A stretch of DNA of 64,000 bases from positions 1 to 64,000 of the forward strand of contig JAJYHG010000152.1 of NCBI GenBank assembly GCA_021784895.1, written 5' to 3'. Below, piece by piece: positions 58,219-63,755 of the stretch (its first letter is position 1; each line of letters begins with the position of its first letter). The notes under the pieces are model-generated. The model did not search any database, was not told the DNA's origin, and saw only the letters and a list, made by a program, of their open reading frames with translations. Position numbers and translations under genes: made by a program. This DNA is from Actinomycetes bacterium (lineage in GTDB: Bacteria > Actinomycetota > Thermoleophilia > Solirubrobacterales > Solirubrobacteraceae).

Positions 58219-59252
58219 TCAGATCTCCCATCCCGGACCCCGGTCGGCCTCACGCTCGCTTCCGCGAGCCGGCCGCTCCGCCTCGGGCTCGCCTGTGTCC
58301 GTGTCGCGGCCTGGCCACAGCCGCCTCTGGGCCGGCATGAGCTCCATCTCCTCGGGTCCCCGTCTAGCAGGGTGGCGCTCCTGCCCCCGACGGCCTGGCC
58401 ACACGCGGCCCCTAACCGGTTCTGGAACGTCTTCCAGCGCCCTGTCGTGTCGTGGCCGCTCCACGGGAGGCGCGTGCTCCGCAACCCGTGCCGCGACGCG
58501 ACCGGCTTCGATCGCCGCACGCCGGACGAACCGCGCGCGATTGGCAGAAACGTCAGGGGGATCCGCAGCCTCAAGCTCCGTCTCCACTACCACACGGGTT
58601 TCGTGTGCGAGCGGGATGCTGATCGAAGGCACCTCCGGCTCTGAACGGCTGAGCCGGTCAGCCAGCAGCGCCAACCTGTCCGTGTCGGGCTCGACATCAG
58701 GCGGGCGCGCGGCGTAGACGTGGGTGTCGTGGCGTGCGCGGCTGATCGCGGCGTAGGTGCCTTTGCTGACTTGTCGCGTGCCCGGCGATGATCACGTGCG
58801 CCGTGTCGCTCGTGTGCCGTTGAACGGGGAACGGGTGCTGCACATATGACAGTCGTAGGTCGGCGTCCTGGACCTGCTCACGGTCCAGGGTCAGCTCGCG
58901 GCCGTCCGCCAAGCGGAGCCGCACCTCGCCCGTCTGCGGGTCAACGCCGGTGACGGTGGCGCCGGTGCCGTTACGCAGAGGCCCGTGCTCCGGCACGGTG
59001 ATCGTGTGGCGAACCAGCACCTCGTCAGCCTCATGGAGGCTGTAGAGGCGACCAGGAACCTCGAGCGCGTTGTCGCCGAGCTGGCGGGTGTTGTTTGCGG
59101 ATCGCCTGCGCTCGCGCGTTGAGCGCGTCCAGATGCTCGTTGGAGGTTTGCGCGAGCACCAGGGTGCCGTAGCCCTGGTCACGGTCGGTCTGGGCGGCGT
59201 CGAGTGCCTGGTCCTCAGCGTTGTGAGCCAGAGTAGTGCTCGTGGTGTGCAA
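58219..59252 (-). pseudogene. MobF (TrwC/TraA-like) relaxase-helicase, C-terminal remnant in three frames
   Basis: Reading on the minus strand: first frame GYGTLVLAQTSNEHLDALNA, RAQAIRK (59190-59110); shift near 59085; second frame NALEVPGRLYSLHEADEVLV, RLRLADGRELTLDREQVQDA, LSYVQHPFPVQRHTSDTAHV, IIAGHAT; shift near 58785; third frame KGTYAAISRARHDTHVYAAR and LALLADRLSRSEPEVPSISI, then an acidic, Arg-rich tail. The YAAxSRARxxTHVY motif is the helicase end of MobF relaxases. The N-terminal relaxase and helicase cores are missing, so this is an ICE or plasmid scar. Confidence 0.65.
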
Positions 59253-59261
59253 TCACGGGCT

Positions 59262-59668
59262 ATGGTGGCTGATGAGCGCGCGATCGGTGAGCGGTTCCGC
59301 GATGGCGGGATCGCTTGACGAGCGCCAGCGGCGTCGGTGGGTGGCGGCGGAGGCGCGTTCGTATGGGCGGGATGGGATCGCGGCGGTTGCGCGAGCGACG
59401 GGGGTGGCGGAAAAACACGATCCGTAAGCGGCTTCGGGATCTCGACACTCCGGAGGGGTTGGCGGCGGGCCGAGTGCGCAAGCCGGGAGCAGGCGCGAAG
59501 CGTAGGACCGATGTGGACCAGACGCTGTTGGAGGACCTCGAGCGCCCGGTTGATGGGGACACTCGCGGGGATCCGGAGCGGCCGCTTCTGTGGACGTCGA
59601 AGAGCGTGCGCAAGCTTGCGCGTGAGCTGCGCGACCTGGGGCATCAGGTGTCCTACCGGACCGTCGCA
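59262..59668 (+). pseudogene. ISAzo13-family transposase, N-terminal remnant
   Basis: Pieces in successive frames: MVADERAIGERFRDG (59262), then SLDERQRRRWVAAEARSYGR, DGIAAVARATGVA, a shift in the AAAAA run near 59413, and RKNTIRKRLRDLDTPEGLAA, GRVRKPGAGAKRRTDVDQTL, LEDLERPVDGDTRGDPERPL, WTSKSVRKLARELRDLGHQV, SYRTVA. Similarity ends at 59668; the catalytic DDE part is gone. It abuts the relaxase remnant, which is on the other strand. Confidence 0.7.
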
Positions 59669-59754
59669 CACGCTCCCTATGAGCTGTCAACTCACAGCAT
59701 CACCCAAGGTCCGTTCCGGCCATAGGCCAGCCCTGAAGTCGACGAGACGGCAAG

Positions 59755-59975: not shown

Positions 59976-61145
59976 TCAGGCGTCGACCTGCCGGCCGATA
60001 AACGCCGCCATGCCCGGCACCGTAAAGGCAACGACGCCGTGCTCGGGCGCGTAGATGACGCCCTTGGCGATCAGGGAAGCACGCGTGGGGCCCAGGCTTG
60101 CGGGCTTGCGACCGAGCCGAGCGGCGACTTCACTAGAAGCACTGCCTTCATCGCCATCTGTGGCGATGGCGCGCAGGTATGCCTGCTCTGCCGGCGTCGC
60201 GCGGTCCCACCTGACGCGAAAGAACCCGTTGTCAAGCGCATTGGTGCCACGCGCGACACCCAAGGCCGCATCCTGGGTCCCGATCAGCGGGCCCGCTGCG
60301 ACATTCCAGCTCTCTTGACCGAACTGCTGGAGAAAGTACGGGTAGCGTCCGGCGGCGTTCACGACCACGGCGATCGCGTCGGGATGCCAGCGCACATCTT
60401 CCAGTCCGGCAGGGATCGTCAGCGCTTCAGCTGCCGCGTTGGGATTGAGTTCCTGGATCCTCATGTAGCGGAGCCGCTCGGCGTAGGATTTCGCTTCGGC
60501 AAGAATCCGCGGCAGACTCGGAAGCCCCGCAAAACCGATCAGCACCCGCCAGTTGTCCTGTGCGGCCGCGTGCGCGATCATGCAGAGCGTCGCGAGTTCG
60601 TCGGAGCGAAGATCTTGCGCCTCGTCGATCAGGATCGCGAGTCCTATGCCCTCCTCCTCGACTGCACCAGCGAGGTCGCCGATCAGCTTCTTGAGGTCGG
60701 TGTCGAGCATGCCCGTGTCCGCCCCGCCACCAGGCACCCCGGACAGGTCGAGCCCGAACCTCCAGGTTCCACCAACGTCGTAGGAGGCCTTGAAACTGAG
60801 TGCGGTCTTCAGTCCCTTCAGCAGCCGCCTGCCGACACCGGGCCGTGCCAGATCCGATAACGGGCCGTAGAGCGCCTCGCCCAACAGCTCGCGCAGCGAC
60901 TTGCCGGAGCCAGCCTCGATCTGCGCGACGATCCAGCCCCTTTCCGTAGCCCGTCGCCGGAACTCGGAGAGCAGCACCGTCTTGCCGACACCACGAAGCC
61001 CGTACAGCACAACCGGCTGATCAGTCCTACCGACAAGCCCCCGCTGCAGCGATGTCTGCCAAGCGGCAAGCGCGTTATCACGACCCACGAGAGCCGCCGG
61101 CTTACGGCCAGCGCCGGGAGCGTAGGGATTGCGAACGGGATCCAT
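59976..61145 (-). CDS. AAA (Orc1/Cdc6-like) ATPase
   Basis: 389 residues. LVGRDNALAAWQTSLQRGLV, then Walker A VVLYGLRGVGKTVLLSEFRR (~45-60), Walker B IGLAILIDEAQDLRSDELAT (~170), sensor-like WRVLIGFAGLPSLPRILAEA, and a C-terminal winged-helix-like part with YPYFLQQFGQESWN, PAEQAYLRAIATDGD, ASSEVAARLGRKPASLGPTR and LIAKGVIYAPEHGVVAFTVP. The build is that of regulatory STAND/Orc-like ATPases common in actinobacteria, often in accessory DNA. A large palindrome precedes it. It could be a stand-alone regulator or work with the PD-(D/E)XK-like protein upstream. Confidence 0.85.
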   Translation of the reverse strand: MDPVRNPYAPGAGRKPAALVGRDNALAAWQTSLQRGLVGRTDQPVVLYGLRGVGKTVLLSEFRRRATERGWIVAQIEAGSGKSLRELLGEALYGPLSDLARPGVGRRLLKGLKTALSFKASYDVGGTWRFGLDLSGVPGGGADTGMLDTDLKKLIGDLAGAVEEEGIGLAILIDEAQDLRSDELATLCMIAHAAAQDNWRVLIGFAGLPSLPRILAEAKSYAERLRYMRIQELNPNAAAEALTIPAGLEDVRWHPDAIAVVVNAAGRYPYFLQQFGQESWNVAAGPLIGTQDAALGVARGTNALDNGFFRVRWDRATPAEQAYLRAIATDGDEGSASSEVAARLGRKPASLGPTRASLIAKGVIYAPEHGVVAFTVPGMAAFIGRQVDA

Positions 61146-61566
61146 CCCACTCGAGTCTAGTCAAATCTATGGCTATATAGCGAGCCGCTACATAGCCATA
61201 TGTTTTGCTAGGTCTCGCAGCCCGCCCACAGCAGCCGGCGCAGCGGCGTCGTCAAGCAAGAGCGAAGCGACTCCTCAGTCCGGCACCCAACCCAAAGTCC
61301 GCGCTCGGCACAGGCCCGCACAGGGCGCACGCAGATCGCGGGACGGCAACCGCACCGTTCGAGCACTCGGACCGCGCCGCGAAACGGTTCTCAGGCGACC
61401 TCGTTCAAGTCGACCTGCAAGAAACTGCCACGCTGAGCTAGAGCCGCAGGCACATCGCCTGACCGTGCCACCGGCGATGACAGCCAGCGTCCGGACGCCG
61501 CGACCGCATGAGATCCCGCTCCGGTCGCGACGCGGTCTGGCAAGGCGGCGCAGTGACGGCTGCTCG
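61146..61566. other. Intergenic region holding a large palindrome
   Basis: 421 bases between two minus-strand genes. The near-perfect palindrome at 61168-61200 is the only structured signal found; the rest has no supported gene. Confidence 0.5.
61168..61200. promoter_or_regulatory. 33-bp near-perfect palindrome upstream of the AAA ATPase
   Basis: TATGGCTATATAGCG (61168-61182), loop AGC, CGCTACATAGCCATA (61186-61200): 14 of 15 arm positions pair. It lies 23 bases before the ATG at 61145, is AT-rich in a GC-rich genome, and is placed to be an operator or promoter element rather than a terminator, since no T-run follows. Confidence 0.6.
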
Positions 61567-62988
61567 TCACACATCGTCGCCGACAGGCGCGGCCCCACTG
61601 TTCGGGGCGCCGTCGCTGGCTGCGCCGGCCAACACGACGGAGTGCTCGTCCTCGAAATCCGCTTGCATATCCAGCTGCTCTGCATCCTGCAGCCTGGGCG
61701 CTGGTGCATGCCAGGGTTTCAGGTTCTGCACGATGTCGTGGTAGAACGCAGTCGTCTGTAGCGCTGTCTCACGCACGAACGAGCCCTTCGCTCTCCCGCG
61801 TTTTTGGCCCATCGGCTTGGCTAGCGTCAGGGTGAACGCCCGCGGCGGACGCTTCGGCTGGCCCGGGCAGAGTGCGGCTGACGGATCCTCGCGCACATCA
61901 CCAAGCTTGACAACGGTGCTCTCGCGGACGTTCGCGAAGCTGGTCTTGATCGACAGGTCGTGTGGTGCATGCTTCAGCTGGCGGATAAGCCAGTTGAACC
62001 TAGTCTTGGCCATCCCCTCGCGGGGCGCGTCGAAGGTGACGCTCAAGAACGTCTGCCGCGACCGCAGGTCCGCCCGGATCGTGAGCGGCCCGATCGCGTC
62101 AGGCACACGGACGGTAGACCAAAGCTCTCCGGAACTGGCAAGCCTGTCAACCAGCTCATCCAGCCGCGCAGACGACGTCTGGGCGCGTGGACGCGGAGCG
62201 GTGACGGTGACGCCCAGCTCCTGGGTGAGGCGCAAGCACAGGTACTGGGTGAACTGCTCCCAACGGTCCGCGACATCACGGCCGGCCCCGTCGCTCTTCC
62301 GAAACGACTGGTTGCGGACTGCGGTTCGAACCTTGACCCAGTTCGTACCCATGTCCTCAAACCCGATCGCTCCACTCGCGGGGCTGGTCAGATAGTGGAT
62401 CAGCTCCCTGAGCACCCACTCCTGATCTGAATTTGAAACCCCGCGGTAACGCTGCTGCACGATCGCCTCGGTGAGCACCCGCCACCAAGAGAGGTGCCAC
62501 AGGCCGGGGCCGTTGCGCGGTGGCTTGCGCCCGTCGAAGACGATCGGCGATTCGAACGGGCCGGCGGTGATCTGCGTCGATATCGTCAGCACCCCGTCGA
62601 AGCCGTGAGCTTTCGCAACATCCAGGTAGGACAGCACCTGCTCGGCTCTCAGGTGCGCAGACCCAGTCTTGACCTCAACCAGGCACGTCCAATCCTTGCC
62701 CGCCCACCGGCAATGGATCGCTCCGTCCGGTATCACGGTGGGACGGCCAACCGTCTTGAACCGGACCTCCGCGAACGTTTCGATCACGGACGCCTTGGGA
62801 GCGCCGAGCTCCTTGAGCAGCGCATGCCCGAACTCCGGCACACCATGCATCACGGCCAGCAGTAGCGAAGTCGCGCGCTTCTCACGCTCTTGCTGGCTGC
62901 GAATGCCGAAGGTGGGCATCAGCCGCGCGTGGGACCAGCTTTCCCATACTTCAGCCCGCGTACCATCGCCCCCTCTCGGCATGGCCAA
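61567..62988 (-). CDS. PD-(D/E)XK nuclease-like hypothetical protein
   Basis: 473 residues. Residues ~60-130 hold RPTVIPDGAIHCRWAGKDWT followed by CLVEVKTGSAHLRAEQVLSY: an Asp, then Glu-x-Lys, the PD-(D/E)XK metal-site pattern, with the helix containing Gln-Val after it. The middle (WHLSWWRVLTEAIVQQ, DRWEQFTQYLCLRLTQELGV) is unassigned, and the C-terminus is acidic and disordered-like. It may be a nuclease acting in defence or DNA repair; no partner methylase is in view. The AAA ATPase gene lies 421 bases downstream on the same strand. Confidence 0.7.
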   Translation of the reverse strand: MAMPRGGDGTRAEVWESWSHARLMPTFGIRSQQEREKRATSLLLAVMHGVPEFGHALLKELGAPKASVIETFAEVRFKTVGRPTVIPDGAIHCRWAGKDWTCLVEVKTGSAHLRAEQVLSYLDVAKAHGFDGVLTISTQITAGPFESPIVFDGRKPPRNGPGLWHLSWWRVLTEAIVQQRYRGVSNSDQEWVLRELIHYLTSPASGAIGFEDMGTNWVKVRTAVRNQSFRKSDGAGRDVADRWEQFTQYLCLRLTQELGVTVTAPRPRAQTSSARLDELVDRLASSGELWSTVRVPDAIGPLTIRADLRSRQTFLSVTFDAPREGMAKTRFNWLIRQLKHAPHDLSIKTSFANVRESTVVKLGDVREDPSAALCPGQPKRPPRAFTLTLAKPMGQKRGRAKGSFVRETALQTTAFYHDIVQNLKPWHAPAPRLQDAEQLDMQADFEDEHSVVLAGAASDGAPNSGAAPVGDDV

Positions 62989-63682
62989 ACCCTACACCCA
63001 GCCAACGCGCTGGCGCAACACGCGTCGGTCCGGTCGGCCGAGGTTGCAGGAGCAGAGCCCCGCGCCCAGCGACAGGTGCTACCCGTGCTGGCGCTTGGGC
63101 GCAAACAGGCCGCCACGCTTCTCGGAAGGCGCGATCCTGGCGGCGGCGTGCAGGGCAGCTGAACGATCGCCAGCTACGGCACGCCGTGCATGGCGGCTCC
63201 GTCACGTCTCCGACGCCGTGCTGATAGCTCACTGCCAAGAGCGGATCGCGCCAGAACGCGAAGATGAGCTGGCGCGCAAGCAACAGCCAGCTCGCGCATG
63301 CCAAACAGGGGAAGAACACCGCGCACGCAGCTATGCCGCAGCCGCCTGGCGAACCGTGACCCACCTTGGCTCCGAGAAACGAGCCCCGGATCGCTGCTGC
63401 GACTGCGACCGTGCCGGGCCACGGAGTGCGTGATCACGACTGAGGAGCGCGCCGCGTCACGGGCACGCCCGGCGAAGCGACAACGTTCACGGCGGGAAGC
63501 GGCCAGCGCGGCGCCAGCACCGTCCAGCCGCCAGCCACGGAGAGCTCGAGCGCACGCTCGCGGCGCGGGCACGACAAACCGAAGCGCGTTTGGTAGCCAA
63601 AAGTGGTAGCCAAACGGCTCAAGTCGCTCTTTGCAGCGCTCTACTAACCGGTAAGTAGCTGGAAAAGCGCCTGTTTTTCGAG
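62989..63682. other. Long intergenic region before tRNA-Glu
   Basis: 694 bases with no gene that I can support; open frames on both strands are Ala/Arg-rich shadows lacking motifs or ribosome sites. It may hold decayed coding DNA. Confidence 0.5.
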
Positions 63683-63755
63683 TACCCCCAGCCGGGCTCG
63701 AACCGGCGATCTCCTCCGTGAAAGGGAGGCGTCCTGACCACTAGACCATGGGGGC
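63683..63755 (-). tRNA. tRNA-Glu (anticodon TTC)
   Basis: 73 bases. Acceptor GCCCCCA pairs with TGGGGGT (first pair G-U); D arm TGGTCTAGTGGTCAGGA; anticodon stem CCTCC/GGAGG with loop CTTTCAC (anticodon TTC); T arm GCCGGTTCGAGCCCGGC. Discriminator A; CCA not encoded. Confidence 0.95.

Follow-up and report, generated by a model that had tools for sequence, protein, structure and literature searches.

A phased six-box DNA array upstream of Orc-like ATPase genes as a putative autoregulatory operator

Gene content of the locus

The window, i.e. the whole stretch of 64,000 nucleotides that was analysed, carries near its end two genes on the same strand, which code for an ATPase and for a PD-(D/E)XK nuclease-like protein. 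A 33-bp palindrome is located in the intergenic region between them (Table 1). Both open reading frames and the palindrome had been named in the original prediction, and all three are present where it had placed them. The nuclease-like ORF starts with TTG or with an ATG six bases downstream.

Table 1. Features of the ATPase locus and its surroundings (positions refer to the window)
Feature	Position	Strand	Basis or remark
ISAzo13-type transposase fragment	59315-59722		PF07592, 7.8e-10
ATPase ORF, 389 aa: AAA_16/Orc1-Cdc6-like with C-terminal winged helix	59976-61145	-	Pfam, motifs, AlphaFold, Foldseek
Intergenic region upstream of the ATPase	61146-61566	-	95% identical to sister genome
Six-box dyad array, proposed operator of the ATPase gene	61158-61210	.	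TA boxes, 53 bp
TA steps of the array	61158-9, 61168-9, 61178-9, 61189-90, 61199-200, 61209-10
33-bp palindrome TATGGCTATATAGCGAGCCGCTACATAGCCATA	61168-61200	.	Inner four array boxes
PD-(D/E)XK nuclease-like protein, 473 aa	61567-62988	-	Judged to lie outside the ATPase/array unit
tRNA-Glu (TTC)	63682-63755		Beside the block

The locus had also been assigned to mobile DNA, which can be upheld in part. The ISAzo13-type transposase fragment and the mobile nature of the ATPase family (see below) speak for this assignment. Against it, the block is orthologous between the window and its sister genome (G105), where the homologous block ends at the same tRNA-Glu, and a search for an att-like repeat of the tRNA-Glu end flanking the block found none. 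A possible degraded relaxase/helicase-like reading frame, without Pfam support, was noticed on the minus strand at 58700-59300.

The ATPase and its family

The ATPase matches Pfam family AAA_16 (2.2e-15) with 58 bits, above the gathering score of 32.6, and thus belongs to this family. It has a Walker A motif (GLRGVGKT, residues 49-56), a Walker B motif with D174-E175, and a predicted winged helix-turn-helix at approximately residues 318-385. Among 33 homologues, the two Walker motifs (GLRGVGKT and DE) and a YPYF-like motif show little or no variation. The AlphaFold model (33 homologues; pLDDT 87.6) consists of an AAA+ domain and a C-terminal winged helix. When this model was submitted to Foldseek, the best solved structures were the archaeal ATPase 2qen and Orc1/Cdc6 proteins (2qby, 1fnn, 2v1u), with RuvB next. 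The succession of an AAA+ domain and a C-terminal winged helix is a trait of Orc1/Cdc6 proteins which the model and the Foldseek matches reveal in the ATPase, and its earlier description as Orc-like is borne out by these structures. By curated score it falls below the level of an Orc1/Cdc6 initiator (TIGR02928, 23.2 bits against a cut-off of 181.3). PDB sequence searches returned no meaningful homologue. That neither protein belongs to a named system, as had been proposed, was confirmed for PADLOC and NCBIfam: the best match of the ATPase to a PADLOC model has an E-value of 0.004 (14 bits) and covers 41 residues, and the nuclease-like protein matches none.

Members of the ATPase family are frequent on actinobacterial and sphingomonad plasmids (118 plasmid records). 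Carriage by phages is nearly absent (one viral contig and one unverified phage record). Many chromosomal copies are solitary and devoid of conserved neighbours. The ATPase gene of the window is a solitary mobile gene of a widespread kind. The genome of the window carries a second copy (L005 4870-6038; G000:C243), which is 71-80% identical and frameshifted, and its array is down to four of six boxes.

The nuclease-like gene is an independent neighbour

The PD-(D/E)XK assignment of the second protein is supported. Its motif (P87-D88...E105-x-K107) is invariant in 13 homologues. Foldseek returned restriction endonucleases such as EcoT38I and BamHI with a probability of 0.84-0.90; these matches are weak (E>0.01, and E>=0.03 for the top ones). 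The protein has no match in Pfam, NCBIfam, or PADLOC. Its relatives from Streptomyces and Rhodococcus plasmids are the C-terminal parts of TerD-domain proteins; they share 36-37% identity with the nuclease-like protein over approximately 420 aa, but the protein of the window is devoid of a TerD domain. In L193 and L194, which are located on Streptomyces and Rhodococcus plasmids, the PD-(D/E)XK-like region is fused to TerD.

According to the original prediction, the ATPase, the palindrome, and the nuclease-like protein might form a new module and act jointly, e.g. in phage defence. In two sister genomes, that of the window and G105, the genes do lie next to each other and in the same orientation. 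Among the 80 nearest ATPase loci, however, the nuclease gene is found within 4 kb of the ATPase only in G105 (L007). It is adjacent at none of 79 other ATPase loci, and at 11 other nuclease loci no ATPase gene lies within 1.5 kb. Both genes are present in two of 397 Actinomycetota genomes, with about one expected by chance (based on full-length ATPase matches at E<1e-80 in approximately 23 genomes and nuclease matches in approximately 18), and in one of the genomes, G430, they reside on separate contigs. Conservation of the neighbourhood, which had been suggested as a check, was not found: neither gene has conserved neighbours. Between the window and the sister genome, DNA identity is 97% for the ATPase gene and 95% for the 420 bp upstream but 82% for the nuclease gene, so that the two genes have had different histories. 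PADLOC likewise has no match at a meaningful level. The two-gene module was rejected on adjacency and co-occurrence, by the refutation criterion of the original prediction itself, and a conserved ATPase/nuclease module is thereby refuted; we give virtually no credence to joint action of the three elements. None of the analyses made points to an anti-phage role. The nuclease gene is an unrelated, independent neighbour of the ATPase gene. Compared to its counterpart in the sister genome (L192), it shows 90 nonsynonymous codon changes, which may reflect local divergence or allele replacement.

A six-box array upstream of the ATPase gene

The association of the palindrome with the ATPase was correctly seen in the original prediction but understated, as the palindrome forms the middle of a conserved array upstream of genes of the ATPase family. 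On the gene strand, the TA steps of the array are at -65, -55, -45, -34, -24, and -14. This spacing of 10-10-11-10-10 corresponds to one box per helical turn and is dyad-symmetric; 12 bp separate the end of the array from the start of the ATPase. The palindrome, which occurs once in the 2.8-Mb genome, is embedded in a longer inverted repeat (61157-61211; 26+26 nt, 81% complementary). We have hardly any doubt that the six-box array is real. A search for other arrays in the genome of the window, as would be members of a regulon, found none, and no consensus sigma-70 promoter was found.

The exact 33-bp palindrome was considered as the conserved unit and rejected: in L007 of the sister genome, where the ATPase is 96% identical, both arms are altered by changes that do not compensate each other, and all six TA boxes remain. 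The same observation bears on the alternative that the palindrome forms an RNA hairpin (a leader or attenuator), as could be supposed for a strong inverted repeat near a start codon. Not only are compensatory changes absent, but Rfam has no match, several homologues are poorly self-complementary (28 of 61 positions), and conservation follows the 10-11 bp phase rather than pairing. An RNA element is thus highly improbable and was rejected.

Conservation of the array across the ATPase family

The array consensus is near TAGC.A..T.TAG.....GTATAG....TCGCTATAC.....TAGA.TTCGCTAGA and consists of two mirror-image half-arrays with three boxes each. The layout seen in the window precedes ATPase homologues down to approximately 63% identity. 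In more distant clades, the half-arrays are kept around a 12- or 13-bp centre, the centre spacing (11, 12, or 13 bp) being clade-specific. The same frame is found upstream of homologues from Solirubrobacterales, Microbacterium, Kocuria, Brachybacterium, Mycolicibacter, and others, where the surrounding DNA has diverged.

In the close clade, 4-6 of the six boxes occur in the 10-10-11-10-10 frame, with all six in the window, L007, L008, and L013-L016. The mean of 5.21 boxes compares to 2.95 in dinucleotide shuffles, the highest of 400 shuffled group means being 3.43. Because the array template was fixed after several close loci had been viewed, P values for the close clade are only descriptive, and the weight rests on held-out data, namely the loci from plasmids and other genomes. 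In the held-out loci from other genomes and from plasmids/phages, TA periodicity is 10.5-11 bp (z=5.3 and 7.0, respectively). Full six-box arrays were encountered with a centre of 13 on the sphingomonad plasmids L136 (Sphingobium), L138, and L140 and also in L112 and L144, with a centre of 11 in Arthrobacter (L132), and with a centre of 12 in L121. In another chromosomal lineage, which comprises Blastococcus, Nocardiopsis, and their relatives, the spacing is 10-12-12, with 46 matches in promoters and 12 elsewhere. The array layout thus tracks the ATPase gene across Actinomycetota and Alphaproteobacteria; since array and gene are linked, joint inheritance is to be expected anyway.

When the six-of-six template was searched on both strands of 80 loci (1.42 Mb), 12 matches were in ATPase promoters and none elsewhere. 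With at most one mismatch, all 10 sites in nine genomes and one plasmid (approximately 33 Mb) are at ATPase promoters. At this stringency, one of the ten records searched, the genome G590 (L012), gave no match. One of these sites, the second in G105, had no known gene beforehand and led to an unlisted ATPase of 76% identity that starts just downstream (L179 2732-3892; G105:C101). These records show a single array for each gene copy, located over the start of that gene in every case. The box words differ between ATPase paralogues of one genome, a comparison that is qualitative.

Some family members do not have the TA array (e.g. L037, L109, L115, L133, L135), and the distant subfamilies L124-L130 show no TA periodicity. 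The distant members L205 and L207 have other tandem repeats upstream, which are 9-10 bp long and consist of words of the TTGCGAAA or CCTAAAAT type. The bare TA pattern was tried as a phylum-wide detector and rejected, as its matches in AT-rich genomes equal those of the control.

Proposed function of the array

Multiple conserved sites at the own promoter, as expected for an autoregulated AAA+ DNA-binding protein, are found throughout the family where the array is present. We consider it probable that the palindrome sits in the middle of an autoregulatory operator which is filled cooperatively by the ATPase itself. ATP-bound protomers would line up along one face of the DNA, with their winged helices in consecutive boxes; contacts between the AAA+ domains would result in two head-to-head trimers, or a hexamer, coating the promoter. 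The coated promoter would leave the ATPase gene repressed, and ATP hydrolysis or another signal may loosen the complex and release expression. As the boxes overlap the DNA that adjoins the start, we would guess that repression is likelier than activation. One array per gene copy looks like a local switch for self-control and not like a regulon.

The boxes might instead be read by a host transcription factor, given that palindromic operators are common in bacteria. We rate this as quite unlikely: the layout accompanies the ATPase gene across two phyla, and the GC-rich genomes concerned have no further array sites. The unlike box words of paralogues within one genome also argue against a host factor and favour recognition that is encoded by the gene itself.

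Given plasmid carriage, the strongest rival is a maintenance role, with the array as an iteron origin or centromere on which the ATPase acts in plasmid replication or partition, and with chromosomal copies as remnants of integrated elements. In addition to being frequent on plasmids, the ATPase is often close to relaxase or transfer genes, and in Clavibacter a second AAA ATPase is nearby. Phased box arrays are also a form taken by ParR/parC-type partition sites, in which tandem boxes recur every 10-11 bp or so on a promoter; their protein, ParR, is small, of the ribbon-helix-helix type, and has an actin-like partner. The array of the window shares the tandem boxes at this distance on a promoter but differs in that it is an inverted pair of half-arrays associated with an AAA+ protein with a winged helix-turn-helix. 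Many copies of the ATPase gene, however, are solitary on chromosomes, without conserved neighbours, each has a single array which is always over its own start, and several of the plasmids have a typed replicon of their own. We thus regard a maintenance role as unlikely and prefer the autoregulatory operator.

In a wider and more tentative reading, which we consider possible but doubtful, each family member would have a DNA ruler of its own, matched to itself and located over its start, with two mirror-image half-arrays of three boxes and a centre spacing set by the clade. Assembled on this ruler, it would act as an ATP-gated oligomeric switch of a kind not described so far. Box words and spacing would then co-diverge with the protein, resulting in many orthogonal operator/regulator pairs.

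Relation to known systems

The best overall fold match is to archaeal ATPase_2/MNS-type ATPases (2qen, 2fna), with TM-scores of 0.57-0.65 and a relation between AAA_16 and ATPase_2 in Pfam; we know of no regulatory DNA array for these proteins. Sequence homology to Orc1 is remote (23 bits to TIGR02928, where the cut-off is 181). The archaeal DNA-damage regulator Orc1-2 from Saccharolobus footprints its own promoter and is thus similar as an Orc/Cdc6-type AAA+ protein with a winged helix that serves as transcription regulator there (PMC9738581). It differs by an asymmetric hexanucleotide motif and a regulon, whereas the window family has six phased dyad boxes at one promoter and is bacterial. 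DnaA, also an AAA+ DNA-binding protein with multiple boxes at its own promoter, has been proposed to repress dnaA through these, with ATP-specific boxes and possibly in an ATP-dependent manner (PMC8203912). In contrast to DnaA, the ATPase has a winged helix instead of DnaA domain IV, a strictly phased symmetric array, and is encoded by a non-core gene.

Novelty and significance

That an AAA+ DNA-binding protein controls its own gene is an established principle. In the open-access literature, we found no description of the ATPase family, of its Orc-like fold encoded by solitary mobile genes in bacteria, or of the mirror-image six-box ruler.

The genes concerned carry just the label "ATP-binding protein" or "AAA family ATPase", with no function assigned, and are dispersed across chromosomes and plasmids of actinobacteria and sphingomonads. 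The array predicts that such ATPases are sequence-specific DNA-binding oligomers and names the DNA that they are expected to bind. It allows ATPases to be found without protein annotation, as was achieved once, blind, in G105. A single protein and a 70-bp fragment would thereby suffice for a direct test of whether an Orc-like protein from bacteria controls itself in an ATP-dependent manner.
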